From: Arachidicoccus rhizosphaerae
Lineage (GTDB): Bacteria > Bacteroidota > Bacteroidia > Chitinophagales > Chitinophagaceae
Length of the DNA stretch: 64,000 bases
Assembly (NCBI RefSeq): GCF_900107765.1
Contig: NZ_FNQY01000004.1
Coordinates: 62,001-126,000, forward strand
Reading direction: 5' to 3'
In this document: positions 1 to 10,168 of the stretch, piece after piece
Layout: the number at the start of each line of letters is the position of its first letter
How positions within the stretch are numbered: the first letter of the stretch is position 1
The notes under the pieces: model-generated
Told to the model about the DNA's origin: nothing
What the model saw: only the letters and a program-made list of their open reading frames with translations
Database searches by the model: none
Made by a program: the position numbers and the translations under genes

Positions 1-1588
1 TTCCGAACTGCTGGTCGATCTGTTGAATCAGCCCCCTGGATTTAAAAATCATCTCATCAATAATGGTCAGAAAATGAACTTTTTTAAGCTGTTGAAGCAG
101 CTCTACCAGTAAATTGAGTTGTTTATGCAGATCCTGCTTGAGTGCCAGGTTTCTTTGAATCGTAGAATTTCGGACATCTATCGCGCCATATAAAGGATAC
201 ACTTCTTCAAAACGGATCCGGCCGATCTGCGCCTTTTTATCGAGTTTTCTTTTTTGTAAAAACTGCCAGGCGGCCTCCGTAAAGGCCCATTGAACGGAAG
301 GCTGCAGAGAAGTAAACCGGTCTTTGACCACTTTATCCAGTGACGCGTCAAAGTCATCGATATGGGCCTGAAACAGCTGCTCCAGTAGTGGGATCACCGG
401 ATCAACCGTCGTCATTAAATCAGGGACTACAATACCTTTTTGCTGTGCGAAGACTTCAAAAATCCCAACCAGCTGTTTATTAAAATAAACCGGCTGAATC
501 ATCAGTCCTTTCACCCCCATATTTTCCATCATCCGGTACATCTCCCTGGCTTCGGCAGGCGCCGTTGCTTCCCGGACGTCCGTATCCAGCACCATTTCCG
601 GGTGTTTGAAAAAGCGTTCCACCGCCTCCAGATATACCTTTTCCCTTACATTATTTTTGGTACAGATTTCACGTAGCTGTTTACCCATATTGCCCACATC
701 ATCCAGTACCATCCGGTTATTAACCCTGAGCATGGGTATCAGCCGGATGATTACATGAGAGCTGCCTATTAAAGACTTAATGGCCTCTGCTACTTCGTCA
801 TACACCATAACGCCGGGCTTCAGGTTTACGATGCTGTTCTTAATATTTTCAATAGCCCTTTTTGCAGTCACGTCACTGACCTGGACCACACTAAAACCTT
901 CAAACCGAATAAGTTCCAGGGGAAGCGCTTCCTGAAGCAGCTGCAACCCCTCCTGGGTGATCAGGTTGTCATGGACTTCAATCAGCTCCAGATTCAGATC
1001 GGGTAACGTAGCGCCTGAAAAACGGACCTCCACAAAACTGGAATCAAACTGCACCTTATAAGCCCTTTGCAGATTATCCACACCGGCTGACAGATACTGA
1101 TAGACTTCAAGTTTCACGGGCAGCTTTTTCTGATATAACCGGTCCAGCGCCAGCGTATAACAAATAGACTGCAGATGCCGGACCTTTTCCTCCTGCGTCA
1201 TGGAATGAATAATACTGCCCCTTAAAAAGCCCTCTTTATCTGTCAGAAAATGATAGATAGCCCTCGTGCCGTAAAAAATTACCGGGGAGAAAGGCAGACT
1301 GAGGGCCCAGTACTTGTCATTTTCATCCGTGACAGGCGGCAACAGGGCCAGCTGAATAAATTCAAGAATGTCTTTATACTCCACGATCTTTTCCAGTGGA
1401 ATTTCTTTTTCCAGTTCAGGATATAAAGCCATCTGCTCCAGCATATATTCGAAAAAGCGAACTTTTGCCCCTTTTTCCTGCTGCACCCTTTCTCTGATAA
1501 AAGCGGCAAACCGCCCCAGAGACAGTACGGTCTCCGGGGAAGCGCCGGCGCTTCTCTGATCACTTAAATATATTATTTCGGCTTTCAT
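1..1588 (-). CDS. GAF-like domain protein, 3' end outside the window
   Basis: The reading frame opens with ATG at 1588 and stays open to base 2, giving 529 codons with no stop, so the C-terminus lies beyond the window. The protein starts MKAEIIYLSDQRSAG and has no signal peptide or membrane segment, so it is probably cytoplasmic. Around residues 310-430 the pattern of alternating strands and helices, including VKGLMIQPVYFNKQLVGIFEV, resembles a GAF sensor domain; the rest is helical and unrecognised. It lies 72 bp downstream of the large beta-barrel fusion gene and may be the last gene of the ppk1 operon. Ligand and output are unknown. The GAF assignment is from pattern only. Confidence 0.6.
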   Translation of the reverse strand, partial: MKAEIIYLSDQRSAGASPETVLSLGRFAAFIRERVQQEKGAKVRFFEYMLEQMALYPELEKEIPLEKIVEYKDILEFIQLALLPPVTDENDKYWALSLPFSPVIFYGTRAIYHFLTDKEGFLRGSIIHSMTQEEKVRHLQSICYTLALDRLYQKKLPVKLEVYQYLSAGVDNLQRAYKVQFDSSFVEVRFSGATLPDLNLELIEVHDNLITQEGLQLLQEALPLELIRFEGFSVVQVSDVTAKRAIENIKNSIVNLKPGVMVYDEVAEAIKSLIGSSHVIIRLIPMLRVNNRMVLDDVGNMGKQLREICTKNNVREKVYLEAVERFFKHPEMVLDTDVREATAPAEAREMYRMMENMGVKGLMIQPVYFNKQLVGIFEVFAQQKGIVVPDLMTTVDPVIPLLEQLFQAHIDDFDASLDKVVKDRFTSLQPSVQWAFTEAAWQFLQKRKLDKKAQIGRIRFEEVYPLYGAIDVRNSTIQRNLALKQDLHKQLNLLVELLQQLKKVHFLTIIDEMIFKSRGLIQQIDQQFG

Positions 1589-1660: not shown

Positions 1661-4600
1661 TTAAAATCTGAGTCCCATGGTAAAATAAGGATACCACCCT
1701 TCGGCTGAGTGTCCCATGACGAACTTAAACACCGTAAGGCCGGCCGGCGCAAAATAAATCCCGCCGCCCGTGCCGTTATGCCATTTGGACGAACGCTGAG
1801 CGCTTTGCCAGACCCTGCCGACATCAAAGAATCCTGTAAGCCCGAACTCCCCTTTAATAATGTAGTTCCCAAAATCCATCAGCGACCAGCGCAGCTCCAG
1901 GTTATTATAAAGTGCCTGCTGCCCGGCAAACCTGTATTTACGATATCCCAGTAAACTACCCTCCCCTCCTATAAAGACGGATTGATAAAACGCTGTCTGC
2001 CCGACGCTTAGTCCGCCACCGATCCGGTCACTTAAAATAAGCGATTTACGGTTATCCAGCGGTTTATAGACGGCCAGCTGGGGAAGCAGCTGGGCAAAGT
2101 TACGGGATAAATCATTGAGCCCTTTATAAGCCTTTAACTCTACCCTGGCATAGACGCCCCACTGGGGCAGCACACTGTTGTTTCGATGATCCATTTCATA
2201 GACTGCTCTCAGGCCGGCATGCAGCTTATCTTTAAAAAGGGTCGCACTGTCATAACTGCCGATCATGCCTGGATTTACCTCCACAAAACGGCCGCTGTTA
2301 TCAGCAGGATCCATATGATAATATTCGAATCCGGGGCCTACCTGCAGTAAATCTTTTTTATTAAAGTTCCAATGGAGGCCGGTAAAGAGATTGACCGTGG
2401 TAAATCTGGTACGGTAATATTTTTCATAACCCTCAAATTTTTGCATCACCGTTTGGTTGCCACGGCCAAAATAATTCTGCGTATTATTAGGCGCATTAAC
2501 ATCCAGATCAGCCACCAGATCAGCCTTACCGATAACGGATTTCCAGACACCGCTGTAAGCGATGCGGTAGGCCTTGGTCGCAAAGGAATGGCGGATCATT
2601 ATCTGATGCGTAGAGCTGTAAGGCGTTTTTCTGAATCCGTTTTGCAGGATAAATTTAGCGCCCACCCCGATACTGAGCTTATCATCCGCATTATAACCAC
2701 CGGTAACCAGTGGCAGAACGGTATTATACCGGTTGGTGGTCATAAAAGCTGTCTGCGTGCTGTCGGGATTTACGGAAACTTTTAACTGGTCTTTATCCTC
2801 TCCGAAATACTTTTCCTTTTGATGATCATAGACCCGGATCCGGTTTCTGGAAGCGGCCACATCGTAATATTTATGTCCTTTGCCTCCGATCAGACGTAAG
2901 CGGACCGTACTGTTTGGGTTGTCAATAAAAACGCTGTCATCGCCCTTTCCTAAATAAAGCCGGATTTCCCGGGTATCCTTTCTGGGGTAGCGCTTGTACA
3001 TTAAAGTATCCTGGATATTGCCTTTTTTACTGATTTTCTGCATGACAATATCCAGCGCATTTTCATCCGGCGCATCCTTTATGGAGATCCATTCATTCTT
3101 ATCACTGGCATGAATATCCACGAATTTATTACTCAGCGCATAATATTTATCCATGGCAGCTGCCAGGTGGTCTCTTCTGGCTTTAAGCTGGCTTAGTAAC
3201 TGATCATGCTTTAAGGCCAGCACGGGCGCCGGAATCCTATGCAGCGCGCTGTCAAGCAGGGCGTCCGTCAGCTTTGCCTGCTGCGCCTCGGCAATCTGGT
3301 GCCACCTGTCAAATCCAATCTGAAAACTGGGATGTGCATCCAAAAAATCTGATTTATAAAAATAATAATTGCTGCCGCGCATGGGATTTTTATAGCTAAA
3401 GCCAAATACACGGGGCATCAGTATCAGCCTTTTGGCGATATCAGCAATGAAGCCCTGGGTCACATTGAGCGCCATATCCCTGTCTCTTGGAACGGCTCTG
3501 TAATACTTCGGCTTTCCTTTTTTGCCGGTTTTCTGAAAACGCCATTGATCCTCATGGCGGTCCCAGTCAGCCAGCAGGTAATCCAGTCCCCGGGCTCTTA
3601 AAAACCCTTCGCCGTCAAAATCATTGTCATTATCTTCCTGTAATTTATCCAGGGTCTCCAGGGTATTATCCGTATTACCTGCGGGTTCCCGCTCTTCCAG
3701 AAGCGTTACCTTTCCTTCAAATAATCTTCCGTAAGCACCAAGAGCCGTATCGGGTGCCACCACGCCTACTACAGGACTAGCATGCAGCACGCCTACCGCT
3801 TCTGCCAGCGGCGGAACCACCAGGGCACCGTAAGGATGCTGGGCACTGGTGGCGTCATCCAGCCAGTCTTTTACAAAAGTACCCTGGAAGGCTTCGGGGG
3901 TAATCAAATCGGAGCTCTTCTCTACACTTCTGAGGGTATATTGCCGGCCCTCAGGATCCGCCATGCGAAGAGAAGTGGATTGGAAGCCGCCGCCCAGCTT
4001 CAGGGGCTGCAGGCCGCCGTGGATATCGGAGACCCGAAGTACCGGAAGCTTTACCGGGAGCGCCCACCCCTCCCGGTAATTTTTACCAAAGAGCCATTTA
4101 TGCATGCCCGACACCTTATTGTAAGCGGCGTGCGGCGCTGCCATCATGCTATCTGCGGCAATCTTTAAGGACTGCCGCTGTTCCACTGCCTGGTAGGGTT
4201 TTGGGGTGAAGACATAACGAAAAACCTCCGGGAAGCCGCCGATTTGATTACCGGCTTCTATTTTAATCACCACCCTTCCGTCTGCCAGCTGGTCCAGCAA
4301 CACAAAACCGGGTTCATTTACATGAAACTGGCTCATTTTGCCACTTAGTGCGGTGCCCTGCCCTCCCTGCAGCCCTGCACTGATGATCTGCAACGGCTGC
4401 TTATCTTCAGAAGTATGGCCGTCCCCTCCAATGACCTGCAGTCCTCCTTCATGGGCGGAGAGTTGCATCAGGTTGGGGAAGCCTGTAAAGACTTTAGAGA
4501 CCATGGAGCGCATCCCCTGATACAAGGGATGATGCAGCTGCTGCGGCGTCTGAAAAACGCTGTTCAGGCCAAGATATAAACTGCCTATTACCGGCAGTGG

Positions 4601-5422
4601 CAGATATAAGTCCTTTTGCAGACGGGTCAGCGGAAAAATATGATCCTTTACAGTAAAATCGCCGTTATAATGACCATAATCACGGAAAGGATGATGCGTG
4701 GCCAGAATAATGGTTTTATAACGGTTCTGGTATAAAAGTTCCCTCAGCGAGCTGACAATATCCCTTTCATTTAAGCAGCCGCAGTCTGCGCCTTTGTTGT
4801 CTTTATCAAATACATGCAGCCACCACTGGGAGTCCATGACAATAACGACCAGCTGATCCGATATTTGGATGAGCTGTGGGTCGGGGCAGCCGTTTTCCGG
4901 CACCTGTCTTACCAGACTATCGCCTAAAGACCGGATAAAAGCACCGGACCGGTTAATCTTCACCAGCCCCTGCGGTCCGCTGTTATCCCAGTCTTTTTCT
5001 CCGGGCATAAAATAGACCGGCACACCCTGCGCTATAAAAGGCTGGTATTTTTCTTTTAACAAAGCGGCCGCCTGACTTTGCGCCTCCTCAGAACTGCCCA
5101 GCCCACTAGGCGGCAGATTGTCCCCCAGATACAAAACGGTTGTTTTCCCGGCCAGCACCTGGCCTGCGGCGGCTGCCACCACCTGACGAAGCTGATCCGT
5201 AGGCTGTTTTTTCGCACTGCCTCCAAGCGCTATTATTCTGGCTACAACAGTGGTGTCTGCCGCAGGCCTTTTAGGTGCGGCTGGCCTAGCGGACTGAACC
5301 AAAGACTGCGCCCGGGATCTTAAGGGTCCTGCAAGCAGGATTGCCAAAAGGATAGTCAGTGCTCCGGGACGCCTTAAAGAGCACTTGACAATTTGGATAA
5401 GATGAGTAAATTTAATTAGCAT
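1661..5422 (-). CDS. Phosphoesterase-like / kinase-like / BamA-type beta-barrel fusion protein
   Basis: 1253 residues with a signal peptide (hydrophobic 21-34, likely cut after SRAQ), so exported. Residues about 60-400 have the calcineurin-phosphoesterase layout: GDN at 100-102, HHPF at 243-246 and LSAHEGGLQ near 321-329. The first metal Asp is replaced by Gly (ALGGS, 65-69) and the usual GNHD reads GEKD (141-144), so this domain may be inactive. Residues about 455-660 show kinase-like landmarks: GGGFQS 477-482, Lys502, EERE 576-579, DWDRHEDQW 619-627 and PRDRD 645-649. From about 850 to the terminal Phe the chain is beta-rich and ends like a BamA/TamA barrel (FTMGLRF). The likely location is the outer membrane, with the N-terminal part in the periplasm. 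It follows the SdiA-type lipoprotein gene by 88 bp. The barrel call is solid, the kinase-like call is inference. Confidence 0.75.
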   Translation of the reverse strand: MLIKFTHLIQIVKCSLRRPGALTILLAILLAGPLRSRAQSLVQSARPAAPKRPAADTTVVARIIALGGSAKKQPTDQLRQVVAAAAGQVLAGKTTVLYLGDNLPPSGLGSSEEAQSQAAALLKEKYQPFIAQGVPVYFMPGEKDWDNSGPQGLVKINRSGAFIRSLGDSLVRQVPENGCPDPQLIQISDQLVVIVMDSQWWLHVFDKDNKGADCGCLNERDIVSSLRELLYQNRYKTIILATHHPFRDYGHYNGDFTVKDHIFPLTRLQKDLYLPLPVIGSLYLGLNSVFQTPQQLHHPLYQGMRSMVSKVFTGFPNLMQLSAHEGGLQVIGGDGHTSEDKQPLQIISAGLQGGQGTALSGKMSQFHVNEPGFVLLDQLADGRVVIKIEAGNQIGGFPEVFRYVFTPKPYQAVEQRQSLKIAADSMMAAPHAAYNKVSGMHKWLFGKNYREGWALPVKLPVLRVSDIHGGLQPLKLGGGFQSTSLRMADPEGRQYTLRSVEKSSDLITPEAFQGTFVKDWLDDATSAQHPYGALVVPPLAEAVGVLHASPVVGVVAPDTALGAYGRLFEGKVTLLEEREPAGNTDNTLETLDKLQEDNDNDFDGEGFLRARGLDYLLADWDRHEDQWRFQKTGKKGKPKYYRAVPRDRDMALNVTQGFIADIAKRLILMPRVFGFSYKNPMRGSNYYFYKSDFLDAHPSFQIGFDRWHQIAEAQQAKLTDALLDSALHRIPAPVLALKHDQLLSQLKARRDHLAAAMDKYYALSNKFVDIHASDKNEWISIKDAPDENALDIVMQKISKKGNIQDTLMYKRYPRKDTREIRLYLGKGDDSVFIDNPNSTVRLRLIGGKGHKYYDVAASRNRIRVYDHQKEKYFGEDKDQLKVSVNPDSTQTAFMTTNRYNTVLPLVTGGYNADDKLSIGVGAKFILQNGFRKTPYSSTHQIMIRHSFATKAYRIAYSGVWKSVIGKADLVADLDVNAPNNTQNYFGRGNQTVMQKFEGYEKYYRTRFTTVNLFTGLHWNFNKKDLLQVGPGFEYYHMDPADNSGRFVEVNPGMIGSYDSATLFKDKLHAGLRAVYEMDHRNNSVLPQWGVYARVELKAYKGLNDLSRNFAQLLPQLAVYKPLDNRKSLILSDRIGGGLSVGQTAFYQSVFIGGEGSLLGYRKYRFAGQQALYNNLELRWSLMDFGNYIIKGEFGLTGFFDVGRVWQSAQRSSKWHNGTGGGIYFAPAGLTVFKFVMGHSAEGWYPYFTMGLRF

Positions 5423-5510: not shown

Positions 5511-6500
5511 CTAGGACACCGGTGTAAATTTCAACAGAGTGGCTCCGCCCGGGCTTTGTCCTTCATTGGATATATACAGATTACCGTCCTTATCAAAACA
5601 CATGCCTTCGGGCTGCGGATACAACCCCGGCGGTAAGGGCTGCACGGATTTCACCTGCCAGTCGCTGCCCGTTACCACGAGCATTTTATTGATGGAGGAT
5701 AATAAATACCACTCGCCGGTGGCAGGATTTCTGCAAATAGCAGAAGGCTTAAAATTGATTGTAGCAGGCTCGTGTTTTTTCTTTTTGCCCTTTTGCTTGG
5801 TCTGCCGGGCATAAGCCATTTCACTGATCCGGGTCACGTCCACCTGGAAAGAGGCGCCCCTTACCCATTTACCGCCGTTTAAGTCCAGCCGGTAAACAGA
5901 AGTCGATTTTTTATGATCCTCCTTTGCACACTGCTTGCAGAGCATATAAAGCTGACTAGTGGCCGTATCGGCATACAACCCTTCATATTCTCCCTTGGGG
6001 ACCAGGCGGTGAATATGCTGTACTTCCACCGTCTTAGTCGGTGTCGCCGTAAAAGAAGCAGGCAGATCAATACTGAACAGATCCCCGTCAGACCGTAAAA
6101 AAATGGCTTTCCCGCCTAAAAAGACCAGGTCTTCATAATCTCCGTCTTTCCCAAAATCAACATAATTTGCTTGTTTGTCTCCCGGCGCCAGTTGGTAAAG
6201 CCTTCCCTTCTCATCCTGCTCTGCATATATATGCAGGCTGTCTGATTGTAAAAACCGGATCCCTGAGACTTCCCTCAGCTCTTCCGGCAACTGATAAACA
6301 GCCGTGGGCTGGCTGAGGCGGTAAGCAAAATCATTTTGAGCAGCGGCGCTCTCAGGCGCCGTACTATGCTGGGTAGCCGTAAGGACCGTGCTATCCGCCT
6401 GGCGACCGGGCTGCCCGGACCGGCAGCTCGCCATCACCACCGGCAGGCTCAGAGAACTGCCAAGCGTGATAACAGCGGATAGTATAGATAATATTTTCAT
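5511..6500 (-). CDS. SdiA-regulated-type lipoprotein (beta-propeller)
   Basis: 329 residues starting at ATG 6500. The N-terminus is a signal peptide ending in a lipobox-like VMASC with Cys at about 26, so probably a lipoprotein. From about residue 65 the sequence matches the SdiA-regulated/esterase-like propeller family: LREVSGIRF, DGDYEDLVFLGGKAIFL, KGEYEGLYAD and the C-terminal QPEGMCFDKDGNLYISNEG. Members are periplasmic or surface propellers of unknown substrate. It sits 42 bp after ppk1 and before the phosphoesterase/barrel gene, so it is probably in the same operon. A poly-lysine stretch near residue 240 (KGKKKK) is a lineage insertion of unknown meaning. Confidence 0.75.
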   Translation of the reverse strand: MKILSILSAVITLGSSLSLPVVMASCRSGQPGRQADSTVLTATQHSTAPESAAAQNDFAYRLSQPTAVYQLPEELREVSGIRFLQSDSLHIYAEQDEKGRLYQLAPGDKQANYVDFGKDGDYEDLVFLGGKAIFLRSDGDLFSIDLPASFTATPTKTVEVQHIHRLVPKGEYEGLYADTATSQLYMLCKQCAKEDHKKSTSVYRLDLNGGKWVRGASFQVDVTRISEMAYARQTKQKGKKKKHEPATINFKPSAICRNPATGEWYLLSSINKMLVVTGSDWQVKSVQPLPPGLYPQPEGMCFDKDGNLYISNEGQSPGGATLLKFTPVS

Positions 6501-6542: not shown

Positions 6543-8855
6543 CTACCTTTCCTTTTCAGGCGCCTGCTGCAGGTTTTTCAGGTATTGATAAGTTTCCAGC
6601 TGTGCGGCTCTATTTTTTTCAGCAGTCTGCGGATCGTCTATAAAATCAGCTCTTTGCTGTTCGGAGATCACCCATTCATTGGTCATCTCTGCCGAAAACC
6701 GGACCAGGTGGAGCTCATCTTCAAATTGCAGCTCCACCATGTCTTTGATGGACCTGGCCAGTTGCTCATCCAGGACAGGACAACAGACTTCAATTCTTCT
6801 GTAAATATTGCGGTTCATCCAGTCCGCTGATCCGATATACAGGCTTTGCTCACCCGCGGCTTCAAAAATAAAGACACGACTGTGCTCCAGGTATCTGTCC
6901 ACCAGCCGGTAGACTTCGATGTTTTCACTAAGACCGGGTTTGCCGGGAATTAACCGGCAAATGCTTCGAACCATCATCCGGATTTTAACGCCTGCCCCTG
7001 ACGCTTCATATAAAGCGTCTATCAGGGACTGTTCTTCCAGATTGTTGAGTTTAATGGTAATTGCGGCAGGTAGTCCCTTCAGGGCCGCCTGCTTGCAACG
7101 CCCTATCTCAGATAAAAAAGCCGCTTTCAGATTAAACCCTGCAATCAGCAAACGCTGGGGTTTAAAAAACTGATAGCCTTCCGGCGTAGCTCTTTTCTCC
7201 AGGAAGAGCATCAGCGTTTCGATGTCTGCCGTAATCTGTTTATCGGAAGTCATCAGAATATGATCTGCATAAACGCCGGCAGTGTTTTCATTAAAATTGC
7301 CCGTTGCCACCACCCCGCAGTATTTCAGGGCAGCGCCCGGCACCCTGCGTTTTACCAGCGCCACTTTTGCATGCACTTTTAAGGCCCAGATGCTATAAAC
7401 AATTCTGACACCGGCGGCCTTCAGTTTGCGGGCCCATTTGATATTATTGGCTTCGTCGAACCGGGCTTTGAGTTCCACAAATACCGTTACCTGCTTGCCG
7501 TTCTGAGCGGCCGTCATCAGCGCATGGGCGATTAGGGAATCACTGGCAATCCGGTACAGGGTCACCGCAATCTCTGACACTTCCGGTCTGATGGCCGCCT
7601 CATTAAAAAACCGCAGCACGGCGCTATAGTCCTGATAGGGTGTGCTGAGTAAAAGATCGTTTTGCTCAATGCGGGTCAGCAGGCCATCTAAGATACTGCC
7701 GCCGTCATACAGCGCATAGTCCGGCCTAAGGACCGGCCATTTTTGGTAATGATGTCCTTTTATGGGAAAAGACATTAAATCTTTTAAGTTATGGTAACGG
7801 CCGCCACGCACAAGCGCCGATTGAGGGCAGTTGAGTACCTCTGTTAAGCGCCCCAGTATATCTTTGGGCATTTGGGTGTCATATAAAAGACGGGTCGCCA
7901 GTCCGTAATTTCTTTTTCCGATCTGACGCTGAATAAAGCTGGCCAGATCTTTTCCATACTCATCTTTATAATCCACGTCAGCGTCCCGGCTGAGTTTAAA
8001 GCTGTAACTGCCTTCATAAATAAAATCGGCGCTGAATATAGTCGGGATATGCATGCGGATAATATCATCCAGCATCCATACATCGGTGGTGGTCAGCCCC
8101 TGTTTATTTTCCAGACTGACAAAACGCCCGCAGTCCAGGGCAGGTATCCGGATAATCCCCAGTCCAGCCGCCCCGCGAAGTATGCCGGGTACCAGTAAAT
8201 AGATCTGATCATTTTCCGGAAAAAACCTGGCCCTTAGCTTTTTTTCCGGACGGTTGCCGGTATTAGCCTCCCGGCCGGGCTGGTCGGCCAGCCAGACCAT
8301 GGTGAGGTGCGCTGCCACCTTTTCAAAAAAACGGGCCTGGATCCTGGGATCAATATTTTCAGGCAGCCTGGCGTTATATTTATAATCAATGCCAGCCATG
8401 CGCAGATCCGGTAAGATATCTGTCAGCAGCATCAGCCCGAATCTGTTTTGCAGTCCGTCGATCATGCTGCGTACCTGCCCTAGCAGCTCCGCGGTAGCGC
8501 AGGCGCTGCTAGGTAGCGTCGGCGGCTGGGGCACGGCCTGGTTATGCGGCGGTTTTACTTCCTTTATATCTTCAGGCGGCTCTTTTTGCGCACTTATTGC
8601 AGGGGAAGTCTGTTGCAGGTGCTGCTGCCCGCTGAAGGTCTCTTCCCGGACGTCCAGGTGTTTTAAGGCCAGAATGGCCGGCATCCTGACCCGGTAGAAC
8701 TCATCCAGATTAGAAGAAAAAATACCCAGAAAACTCAGTTTCTCTCCTACCGGTACACCGGGTCTGCCGGCTTCCATTAAAATCCGTTCATTAAAAGAAA
8801 GCCAGCTTAAATCTCTGTCAAAATATGTAAATTTACCCTTGGATTTCATGCTCAT
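6543..8855 (-). CDS. ppk1: Polyphosphate kinase 1
   Basis: 770 residues. Transfers the ATP gamma-phosphate to a growing polyphosphate chain, reversibly. The N-terminal YFDRDLSWLSFNERIL and SNLDEFYRVRMP blocks are the PPK1 signature. The autophosphorylated histidine is His495 in ALKVHAKVAL and the second conserved histidine is His658 in YLEHSRVFIF; the phospholipase-D-like C-terminal repeats carry TGNFNENTAGVYAD and GSADWMNRN. A Pro/Gln/Lys-rich insert at about 72-120 (between VREET and TAELL) separates parts of the N-terminal helical region and makes the protein longer than the usual ~690 residues. The ATG at 8855 lies 11 bp beyond the stop of the HD/PycTM gene, implying translational coupling; an ATG two codons later is equally possible. 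Confidence 0.95.
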   Translation of the reverse strand: MSMKSKGKFTYFDRDLSWLSFNERILMEAGRPGVPVGEKLSFLGIFSSNLDEFYRVRMPAILALKHLDVREETFSGQQHLQQTSPAISAQKEPPEDIKEVKPPHNQAVPQPPTLPSSACATAELLGQVRSMIDGLQNRFGLMLLTDILPDLRMAGIDYKYNARLPENIDPRIQARFFEKVAAHLTMVWLADQPGREANTGNRPEKKLRARFFPENDQIYLLVPGILRGAAGLGIIRIPALDCGRFVSLENKQGLTTTDVWMLDDIIRMHIPTIFSADFIYEGSYSFKLSRDADVDYKDEYGKDLASFIQRQIGKRNYGLATRLLYDTQMPKDILGRLTEVLNCPQSALVRGGRYHNLKDLMSFPIKGHHYQKWPVLRPDYALYDGGSILDGLLTRIEQNDLLLSTPYQDYSAVLRFFNEAAIRPEVSEIAVTLYRIASDSLIAHALMTAAQNGKQVTVFVELKARFDEANNIKWARKLKAAGVRIVYSIWALKVHAKVALVKRRVPGAALKYCGVVATGNFNENTAGVYADHILMTSDKQITADIETLMLFLEKRATPEGYQFFKPQRLLIAGFNLKAAFLSEIGRCKQAALKGLPAAITIKLNNLEEQSLIDALYEASGAGVKIRMMVRSICRLIPGKPGLSENIEVYRLVDRYLEHSRVFIFEAAGEQSLYIGSADWMNRNIYRRIEVCCPVLDEQLARSIKDMVELQFEDELHLVRFSAEMTNEWVISEQQRADFIDDPQTAEKNRAAQLETYQYLKNLQQAPEKER

Positions 8856-8866
8856 TCATATCCGGT

Positions 8867-10168
8867 TTAAGAAACCATTACGCCAATCATATAGGCAATC
8901 ACAGACAAAATCAGTCCATACATAAACACATTATATGCGGTCCTGAGTAACCGGTATTTCTTACCCAGCACCACGCCCTGCGCGTAGACATCCTTGATCA
9001 GGGATCCATATAAGAAATCCCGGTCATCCATCACCTGCCACATCCCTTTTGTATATTGTTCGAGATTCATTTTATAAAAATTACCGAAGAAAAGCAGGTT
9101 TGTTTTTTTCTCTTCGATATCTTTTTCCGTAAAGGTTCCTCTGGGAATGGTCGGACGGGTGGATAGGATGGAAAAAATTATGGTGATCAGGCTGATGGTG
9201 ATCAAAATAAAAGTCGGAATAATTAATTCTTCGTGGGCATCTAATTTACGCAGCAGCAGGCTGATGACGGCCGATAAAATAATGGAGTTTACAGAAATTA
9301 AAATATGCGCTTTATTGTCCGCCATATTGGAGAGTTTCTGGTTATTGCCTGCCGTTACCCTGAACATGGTTTCAATGCCCTTATCGGGCCTTTCATTTTT
9401 TTCCTTCTTCTCTTTTAGCTTCTCTTTATCCTTGTTTTTTTTCTTTTCCTGTTTCTCGTGACCGGTGTCTGCCAGGGAGGCGGCGGTGGCAGGCAAAGCA
9501 GGGCCCTGTTCAGACTCCGGCAAAACGGCGTCCTTTGTCTCCTCAGCGCCGCTTTGCCGGGAGGCCACCTCCGCTGCTTTTTTCTTAAGGGCGGCCAGAT
9601 TAGCCGCCTTCTTATCCGTTAGCAACATCCGGCAATAATCCGTATGATAATGATGAGATTCCAAAAACGCAATGGTGCCCAGCCGCCACTGCTGCCTGGA
9701 CAGTTCTTTGCCCAGCACTTTAGCTTTTTCCTGGCACATCAGACCATTGATTTCTTTAAAACGGTCCCGACCCAGATGAAAAAGGTCGGCGTCGCATACA
9801 ATAGCTTCCAGTAACCCCTTTGGCTGCTGTGGAATCTTTGTAGCCAGGATACAGCCTTTCACTTGATCCGTTAGTCCGGGAGCCACCGCGTGCGCTTCCA
9901 GAAAAGCAGCCGCTGCATCCGCTCCCGCCTGCTCATGCTGATCCGGGTCGATATGATATCCCACGTCATGGAACCAGGCGGCCACCATCACCACTTCATA
10001 ATCCGCGTCTTCCAGTTGGTAATGACTGCTGATCTCTTCAGCGGCGGCCACTACCGCCTGCGTATGTGCCAGGTTATGATAGGCTCTTTTTTCCTGTTCA
10101 TGATTGGCAAAAAAAGCCCGGACAAACACCTGCGCCTCCTGCACTAATTGTACTACTGCTTCCTTCAT
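8867..10168 (-). CDS. HD-domain hydrolase fused to Pycsar-effector-type membrane domain
   Basis: 433 residues from ATG 10168. Residues 1-200 form an HD phosphohydrolase domain: His35 (YHNLAH), His67-Asp68 (WFHDVG) and Asp126/128 (VCDADLFHLG) fit the H...HD...D metal site. A charged Lys/Glu-rich linker spans about 205-265. The C-terminal third matches the PycTM effector (DUF5706) pattern: NMADNKAHILISVNSIILS, two hydrophobic segments at about 283-333, then DDRDFLYGSLIKDVYAQG, with a last segment at about 411-433. In Pycsar defence, PycTM effectors are triggered by cCMP or cUMP and damage the inner membrane. Here no cyclase is visible, and the fused HD domain suggests control by nucleotide hydrolysis instead. 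First gene of the presumed ppk1 operon. Confidence 0.85.
   Translation of the reverse strand: MKEAVVQLVQEAQVFVRAFFANHEQEKRAYHNLAHTQAVVAAAEEISSHYQLEDADYEVVMVAAWFHDVGYHIDPDQHEQAGADAAAAFLEAHAVAPGLTDQVKGCILATKIPQQPKGLLEAIVCDADLFHLGRDRFKEINGLMCQEKAKVLGKELSRQQWRLGTIAFLESHHYHTDYCRMLLTDKKAANLAALKKKAAEVASRQSGAEETKDAVLPESEQGPALPATAASLADTGHEKQEKKKNKDKEKLKEKKEKNERPDKGIETMFRVTAGNNQKLSNMADNKAHILISVNSIILSAVISLLLRKLDAHEELIIPTFILITISLITIIFSILSTRPTIPRGTFTEKDIEEKKTNLLFFGNFYKMNLEQYTKGMWQVMDDRDFLYGSLIKDVYAQGVVLGKKYRLLRTAYNVFMYGLILSVIAYMIGVMVS

Follow-up and report, generated by a model that had tools for sequence, protein, structure and literature searches.

What kind of domain lies between a phosphatase-like N-terminus and an Omp85-type barrel on a single bacterial protein, and could it be a kinase held at the outer membrane? 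The question is raised by a gene of Arachidicoccus rhizosphaerae located in a stretch of 64,000 nucleotides of contig NZ_FNQY01000004.1 (hereafter "the window", to which the positions of this gene and its neighbours refer). A sequence-only reading of the window had described an open reading frame at 1661-5422 on the minus strand, coding for 1253 amino acids, and it was right on the frame, the strand and the length. Three folded parts can be distinguished in the protein: a purple-acid-phosphatase-like domain (residues ~56-411), a kinase-like domain (~457-770) and a 16-stranded Omp85 barrel (~901-1251). Pfam names the barrel alone (PF01103, Omp85, 42.6 bits for a cut-off of 24, E 7.1e-11, residues 1000-1218; ShlB is a weaker match on the barrel protein, below its own cut-off), and neither Pfam nor NCBIfam names a family for the middle region of the frame. 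A sequence search in solved structures finds 9ccg on the barrel region (E 1.5e-05) and one other, weak match (E 0.8). Our models support a kinase-like fold for the middle region, and we think that this domain is probably catalytic. The features of the gene on which the argument relies are the following.

5306..5422, minus strand: putative N-terminal export signal, residues 1-39, with the hydrophobic run ALTILLAILLAGPL, read by eye
4190..5257, minus strand: purple-acid-phosphatase-like domain with some of its metal-site residues lost, residues 56-411
3113..4054, minus strand: core of the kinase-like domain, residues ~457-770, modelled as 430-812 (AlphaFold2 and VIA-align)
3977..3994, minus strand: GGGFQS, glycine-rich loop, residues 477-482 (conservation)
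3917..3919, minus strand: Lys502, candidate nucleotide-binding lysine (conservation; putative role)
3695..3697, minus strand: Glu576 of EERE (conservation), placed by the model in a strand before the second helical part
3542..3568, minus strand: DWDRHEDQW, motif of catalytic-loop type, residues 619-627 (profile alignment to CtkA and conservation)
3476..3490, minus strand: PRDRD, motif of metal-binding type, residues 645-649 (conservation; putative role)
2771..3124, minus strand: beta-rich linker domain, residues ~767-884 (strands in the full model)
1670..2722, minus strand: 16-stranded Omp85-type beta-barrel, residues ~901-1251 (Pfam, strands and VIA-align)
1922..1951, minus strand: LGYRKYRFAG, residues 1158-1167 (invariant columns in alignment A3)

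The kinase proposal of the sequence-only reading was based on the order and spacing of five short motifs, and all of them stand where it had placed them (GGGFQS at 477, Lys502, EERE at 576, DWDRHEDQW at 619 and PRDRD at 645). That they are chance matches is ruled out by their conservation in two alignments. Alignment A1 contains the window protein and 27 relatives from a whole-domain search with residues 430-800, which matched in 29 of the 149 genomes of the window's order; 30 of the 39 places found were taken, the fragments L026 and L029 were excluded, and no motif entered the selection. Alignment A2 is larger (the window protein and 83 relatives, L102 excluded), but its loci were picked by peptide patterns over DWDRH and PRDRD, so that these columns are biased by the selection and A1 is the fairer set there. 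In A1, G477-G479, S484, R498, K502, D523, E576, D614, D619, H623, D647 and D649 are identical in all 28 rows, and D621 is kept in 25, with Ser in the other three; the Gln of the catalytic loop is Asn in five of the 28. In A2, K502 is present in 83 of 84 rows, and the other positions invariant in A1, as well as D621, in all 84. The succession of glycine loop, N-lobe lysine, catalytic-type Asp and metal-type Asp is the one found in the protein-kinase-like (PKL) superfamily. Which Asp would be catalytic is suggested by a profile search of the PDB, where CtkA comes first, with a weak match (E 0.083) that aligns DwDRHeDqW on NFDRHNGNW; we infer that D621 is the catalytic residue, CtkA having Asn at the position of D619, a choice that rests on this single weak profile alignment. 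The three relatives with Ser at this position (L014, L017 and L022, with DWSRH or DWSKH) also have a degenerate phosphoesterase part, and they may lack activity or rely on D619 instead.

The AlphaFold2 model of residues 430-812, computed from A2, has a mean predicted local distance difference test score (pLDDT) of 91.3 and a predicted template-modelling score (pTM) of 0.90. It shows three N-lobe strands, a helix, two further strands and a helical second half; both lobes of a kinase, whose absence the sequence-only reading had named as the result that would count against it, are present. A VIA-align comparison covered 998 chains, and among the 50 best rows listed all 50 are kinase-fold proteins. 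The best is the type II phosphatidylinositol 4-kinase PI4KIIbeta (4wtv, Z 15.1, 258 residues aligned, root-mean-square deviation (rmsd) 4.5), followed by CotH (5jda, Z 13.5, 244 aligned, rmsd 4.1) and CtkA (3akk, Z 13.4, 240 aligned, rmsd 4.7), while mTOR (Z 12.2) and PI3K, VPS34 and others (10.7-11.7) score lower. The best structural matches, CotH and CtkA included, are thus atypical kinases, as had been proposed. Foldseek gives two matches with E below 0.001, PI4KIIalpha and the pseudokinase domain of JAK2 (query TM-score 0.43 and 0.30, rmsd 6.6 and 14.6, respectively); HipA (2wiu) is found at rank 23 (E 0.017) and DrFam20C1 (5yh0) at rank 29 (E 0.021). Neither Fam20 nor HipA is among the 50 VIA-align rows listed, which does not exclude either of them. 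Taken as a prediction, the model supports a two-lobed, kinase-like fold that is nearest to PI4KII, CotH and CtkA.

Does the domain then belong to a named kinase family? The sequence-only reading spoke of a Fam20/CotH/HipA style; this holds for the likeness in fold to CotH (VIA-align) and HipA (Foldseek), may hold for that to Fam20C (Foldseek), and fails for membership as judged by sequence profiles. A Pfam scan of the 84 members of A2 finds no kinase family; CotH, HipA_C (PF07804), the Fam20 C-terminal family and PI3/PI4 kinase are all absent from its matches. The 22 Pfam families that do appear at E <=1 (none matching more than two of the 84 members; best DUF5395, E 0.0062) include no kinase, and we took these weak matches as due to chance. 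We also compared A2 by hhalign with 30 CotH frames and 20 HipA frames from genomes of the window's order, and rejected membership in both families: CotH (PF08757) gives a probability of 1.9 (E 0.026) over 23 columns, which end in the catalytic loop, and HipA a probability of 0.8 outside the active site. Such single-pair probabilities are rough, and the phosphoesterase control is an unclean negative, its 4.9 coming from a stretch that the end of its alignment shares with the beginning of A2.

The known kinases nearest in fold can also be compared with the window protein and its relatives in their motifs. CotH, of which two structures are solved (5jd9 and 5jda), has NxDsY..s..n and wDxn in place of DWDRHxDQW and PRDRD. 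It resembles the window protein in having two spaced Asp sites: D228 and D251, both altered in inactive forms according to passages of PMC7821199, are 23 residues apart, and D621 and D647 of the window protein 26. A CotH gene is present elsewhere in the window's genome. CtkA and the HipA frames are similar to the window protein in fold and have NFDRHNGNW and N.DdHlkN, respectively, for its DWDRHEDQW; no barrel fusion of CtkA or HipA kinases is known to us. Finally, the type II phosphatidylinositol 4-kinases, the best fold match (Z 13.2-15.1 among the rows listed), are only 10-13% identical over the aligned part, and they are eukaryotic enzymes of internal membranes.

The N-terminal part had been called phosphoesterase-like, which is correct for its fold and incorrect if an intact metal site is implied. 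VIA-align aligns 270 residues of it with 1ute, a purple acid phosphatase (Z 27.2, rmsd 3.0), and matches it also to GAP50 (3tgh, Z 25.8), a structure titled anchor protein. The window copy is, however, without three of the six core metal positions: the first metal motif is missing its D, GNHD its N and GHxH its final H, and the corresponding stretches read ALGGSAK (65-71), GEKDW (141-145) and AHEG (323-326). To judge from these residues, this phosphoesterase is probably dead. Metallophos has no Pfam match in the window protein at E 1, and PF00149 matches all three intact fusions scanned. In 64 phosphoesterase regions scored, the six core metal residues are all kept in 44 and at least one is missing in 20 (one of these 20, L107, has its start cut off by an in-frame stop).

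The history of this loss can be followed on a tree built from 112 kinase domains (L026 and L029 excluded), which was made by a quick method and has long end branches. The phosphoesterase is absent in 49 of them, intact in 43 and degenerate in 19, L107 being unscored. Degeneracy requires 10 changes on this tree, and starred branches make at least eight of them necessary; the window protein, itself degenerate, groups with three sisters whose phosphoesterase is intact (100, starred). The kinase residues, by contrast, persist while the phosphoesterase decays repeatedly across relatives. The sequence-only reading had stressed the unusual presence of a phosphoesterase-like and a kinase-like unit on one chain. 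This is true of the window protein, but the two are not a fixed pair, the phosphoesterase being missing in 49 of the 111 relatives scored. Since it is optional or decaying, the constant core is the pair of kinase and barrel, and one of the forms in which this core occurs has the phosphoesterase as well. In L110 (6734-7720) the phosphoesterase is a separate gene directly before the kinase-barrel gene.

The third part, also claimed to be a barrel, is one by both profile and model: Pfam places Omp85 over its cut-off, and the full-length model, which covers residues 56-1253 (pLDDT 84.4, pTM 0.72), shows 16 long strands from residue 901 (846-1196 in model numbering). VIA-align gives Z 25.4 with TamA and ~25 with BamA. 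Within the barrel, R1164, F1165 and G1167 of LGYRKYRFAG, which we take to be an Omp85 motif of loop-6 type, are invariant columns in the 57-row alignment A3. In the linker (~767-884), where POTRA might be expected, the full model has ten strands, any helix being shorter than four residues, and no POTRA match is found by Pfam at E 1 in the window protein. The idea that the middle region is itself a linker or a POTRA was discarded on this Pfam result, the kinase-like model and the strands-only linker. Omp85 members without any N-terminal extension are known and described as 'noNterm' in the main text of PMC4104836.

On which side of the membrane would the N-terminal domains be? In PlpD, as reported in sections of PMC11116518, an enzyme domain precedes a 16-strand Omp85 barrel and was shown to be periplasmic. 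Because the N-terminal domains of the window protein precede the barrel in the same manner, they are, by analogy, probably on the periplasmic side of the outer membrane; the two proteins differ in that PlpD has a patatin lipase domain and a POTRA, and the window protein a kinase-like domain and a beta-rich linker. Twelve of 30 frames of relatives start with a lipoprotein-like Cys by eye (16 of 30 with a loose pattern).

Among 395 genomes drawn from the phylum, an alignment search finds the domain in 143; in the window's family it is present in 78 of 195. A scan of named genomes confirmed at least 589 encoding stretches, from which 80 loci were kept; those in the tree are from Bacteroidota. Kinase-only frames also exist, and they keep the Lys and Asp residues; of these, L079 runs into a contig end, L085 into the edge of its locus, and a stop divides L082. 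Three Rufibacter loci carry such extra kinase-only frames (L080:2684-4429, L087:2718-4352 and L085:2-1399, minus strand) ~2-5 kb from the barrel-fused gene. In-frame stops split otherwise continuous genes of the family in two at L082:7872-9140 and L107:6777-7170.

What might be the process in which the protein works? The neighbouring genes, all on the minus strand, offer a lead.

8867..10168, minus strand: fusion of an HD domain with the membrane domain PycTM (Pfam PF18967, E 2.2e-33; PF01966, E 9.1e-05)
6543..8855, minus strand: second PPK1-type polyphosphate kinase (TIGR03705, E 2.8e-166, over cut-off)
5511..6500, minus strand: SdiA-regulated (phytase-like) beta-propeller protein (Pfam PF06977, E 2.8e-06, over cut-off), with a lipoprotein-like N-terminus by eye
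2..1588, minus strand: downstream neighbour, incomplete at the window edge, no Pfam match at E 1

In the order of transcription these are HD-PycTM, PPK1, the SdiA-regulated protein, the kinase-barrel gene and gene 2..1588, with gaps of 11, 42, 88 and 72 bases. In the 80 related loci (some of which are ended by contig ends), tblastn finds HD-PycTM, all or part, in 45, gene 2..1588 in 40, the SdiA-regulated protein in 39, PPK1 in 33 and a PAP2 protein in 11. PycTM is named after Pycsar effectors, and HD-PycTM adjoins the polyphosphate kinase in many relatives.

This PPK1 retains the KVHAK and YLEHSR stretches, which presumably hold the active-site histidines. The window genome has another PPK1 (G000:C23), 37% identical to it. 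Among the matches listed, PPK1 is present in 184 of the 195 family genomes, the weaker ones being mostly 34-39% identical to the window PPK1, and some of the genomes carry a closer paralogue (41-66%). The paralogue rows were cut at E 5.9e-105, which excludes at least one partial paralogue (G657:C187). With this definition, and with the kinase fragments G553:C39, G698:C296 and G666:C23 excluded, the closer paralogue occurs, among the matches listed, in 60 family genomes, of which all but one (59) have the kinase-like domain, compared with 78 of 195 overall (Fisher p 7e-32, with genomes counted as independent and kinship ignored). The genes are also close together: 46 of 61 paralogue genes, among the matches listed, have a kinase-domain gene no more than 8 kb away. 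Of the other 15, 13 are on contigs without a kinase gene, and for two the nearest on the contig is at 156 and 286 kb. We think that this close linkage to a second polyphosphate kinase is a direct lead on the phosphate donor or on the process, and the conserved neighbourhood suggests that the protein takes part in managing phosphate or polyphosphate at the envelope.

We propose, with moderate confidence, that the protein is an outer-membrane-anchored phosphotransferase with a catalytic kinase domain and an accessory phosphatase-like domain, acting in phosphate or polyphosphate matters at the envelope. In such an enzyme the glycine loop and Lys502 would hold the phosphate donor, Asp621 (or Asp619) would be the catalytic base, and Asp647 and Asp649 would bind the metal; the purple-acid-phosphatase-like domain could remove phosphate in many relatives, being in the window copy probably a dead structural remnant. 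Several observations weigh against this proposal. ATP would be unexpected in the periplasm, which makes the phosphate donor a problem. In the predicted model, K502 sits after the third strand and not within it, and the helix that follows has an invariant Asp (D523) where protein kinases usually have Glu. Foldseek scores the model modestly (E no better than 7e-4, TM-scores not above 0.48 among the matches listed, large rmsd), and there is no sequence-profile link to any named kinase family. The domain has no match in 117 of the 195 family genomes, including two of four from the window's genus, and is not essential to the group. Finally, the Ser for D621 in three of 28 rows and the K502 missing in one of 84 indicate that some members may be inactive.

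This last point leads to the idea of a pseudokinase, with a kinase fold used for binding or sensing and not for transfer, which together with the dead phosphoesterase would form a scaffold on the Omp85 barrel. The degenerate phosphoesterase next to it, the anchor protein GAP50 among the matches of that part, and the Ser substitutions are all in its favour. A pseudokinase would nevertheless be expected to lose its catalytic residues, as the phosphoesterase did, and their invariance across divergent relatives, whether or not these have the phosphoesterase and the barrel, makes us consider this explanation unlikely, if worth keeping in mind. One could also see the barrel as the working part, transporting protein or lipid like BamA or TamA (which its Z of ~25 to both and its Pfam match recall), with the N-terminal domains as substrate-handling or regulatory additions; the existence of kinase-only proteins indicates, however, that the domain can occur without a barrel, no POTRA was found by Pfam, and we regard this view as rather unlikely. 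The kinase fold might otherwise serve another transfer, for example AMPylation or glutamylation of an envelope protein or lipid. Kinase-fold enzymes acting in this way have been described (SidJ for glutamylation, and AMPylases with kinase domains), and the catalytic loop is unusual, D-W-D-R-H being followed by Gln (or Asn, in the five rows of A1 already mentioned) at a position that is Asn in CtkA and in the HipA frames; but nothing points positively in this direction, the solved structures that match best are inositol-lipid or protein kinases, and we hold this explanation to be improbable. A bolder form of our proposed phosphotransferase would be an ATP-independent periplasmic kinase of the outer membrane, taking phosphate from polyphosphate or another exported store via the adjoining PPK1 and phosphorylating an envelope lipid or protein, with the phosphatase-like domain as eraser in those proteins that have it intact; we find this very doubtful.

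If the proposed phosphotransferase is nevertheless considered as a candidate enzyme, its interest lies in its predicted place, a kinase-type domain probably held at the inner face of the outer membrane, where ATP would not be expected. Being apparently exported and tied to this membrane, it bears on how phosphorylation could occur outside the cytoplasm without ATP. The family has a kinase fold without a Pfam kinase match, and it sits unnamed inside proteins that are annotated by their barrel.

A 'Metallo' subfamily of Omp85, with a PF00149 domain N-terminal to the barrel, was described by Heinz and Lithgow in 2014 (PMC4104836); the main text of that paper calls PF00149 a metalloprotease domain, whereas for Pfam it is a calcineurin-like phosphoesterase, and the word kinase is absent from this main text. 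We found no earlier description of a kinase-like domain on an Omp85 protein in the literature searched, in which subscription papers are thinly covered. What was known is thus the fusion of phosphoesterase and Omp85, and what is new is a kinase-like family for which no Pfam model was found, apparently exported and bound to the outer membrane, and closely linked to a second PPK1. In the 149 genomes of the window's order, 17 shorter phosphoesterase frames are unfused, one of them on a contig with a kinase gene, and all 29 phosphoesterase frames of more than 450 amino acids are on contigs with the kinase-like domain.

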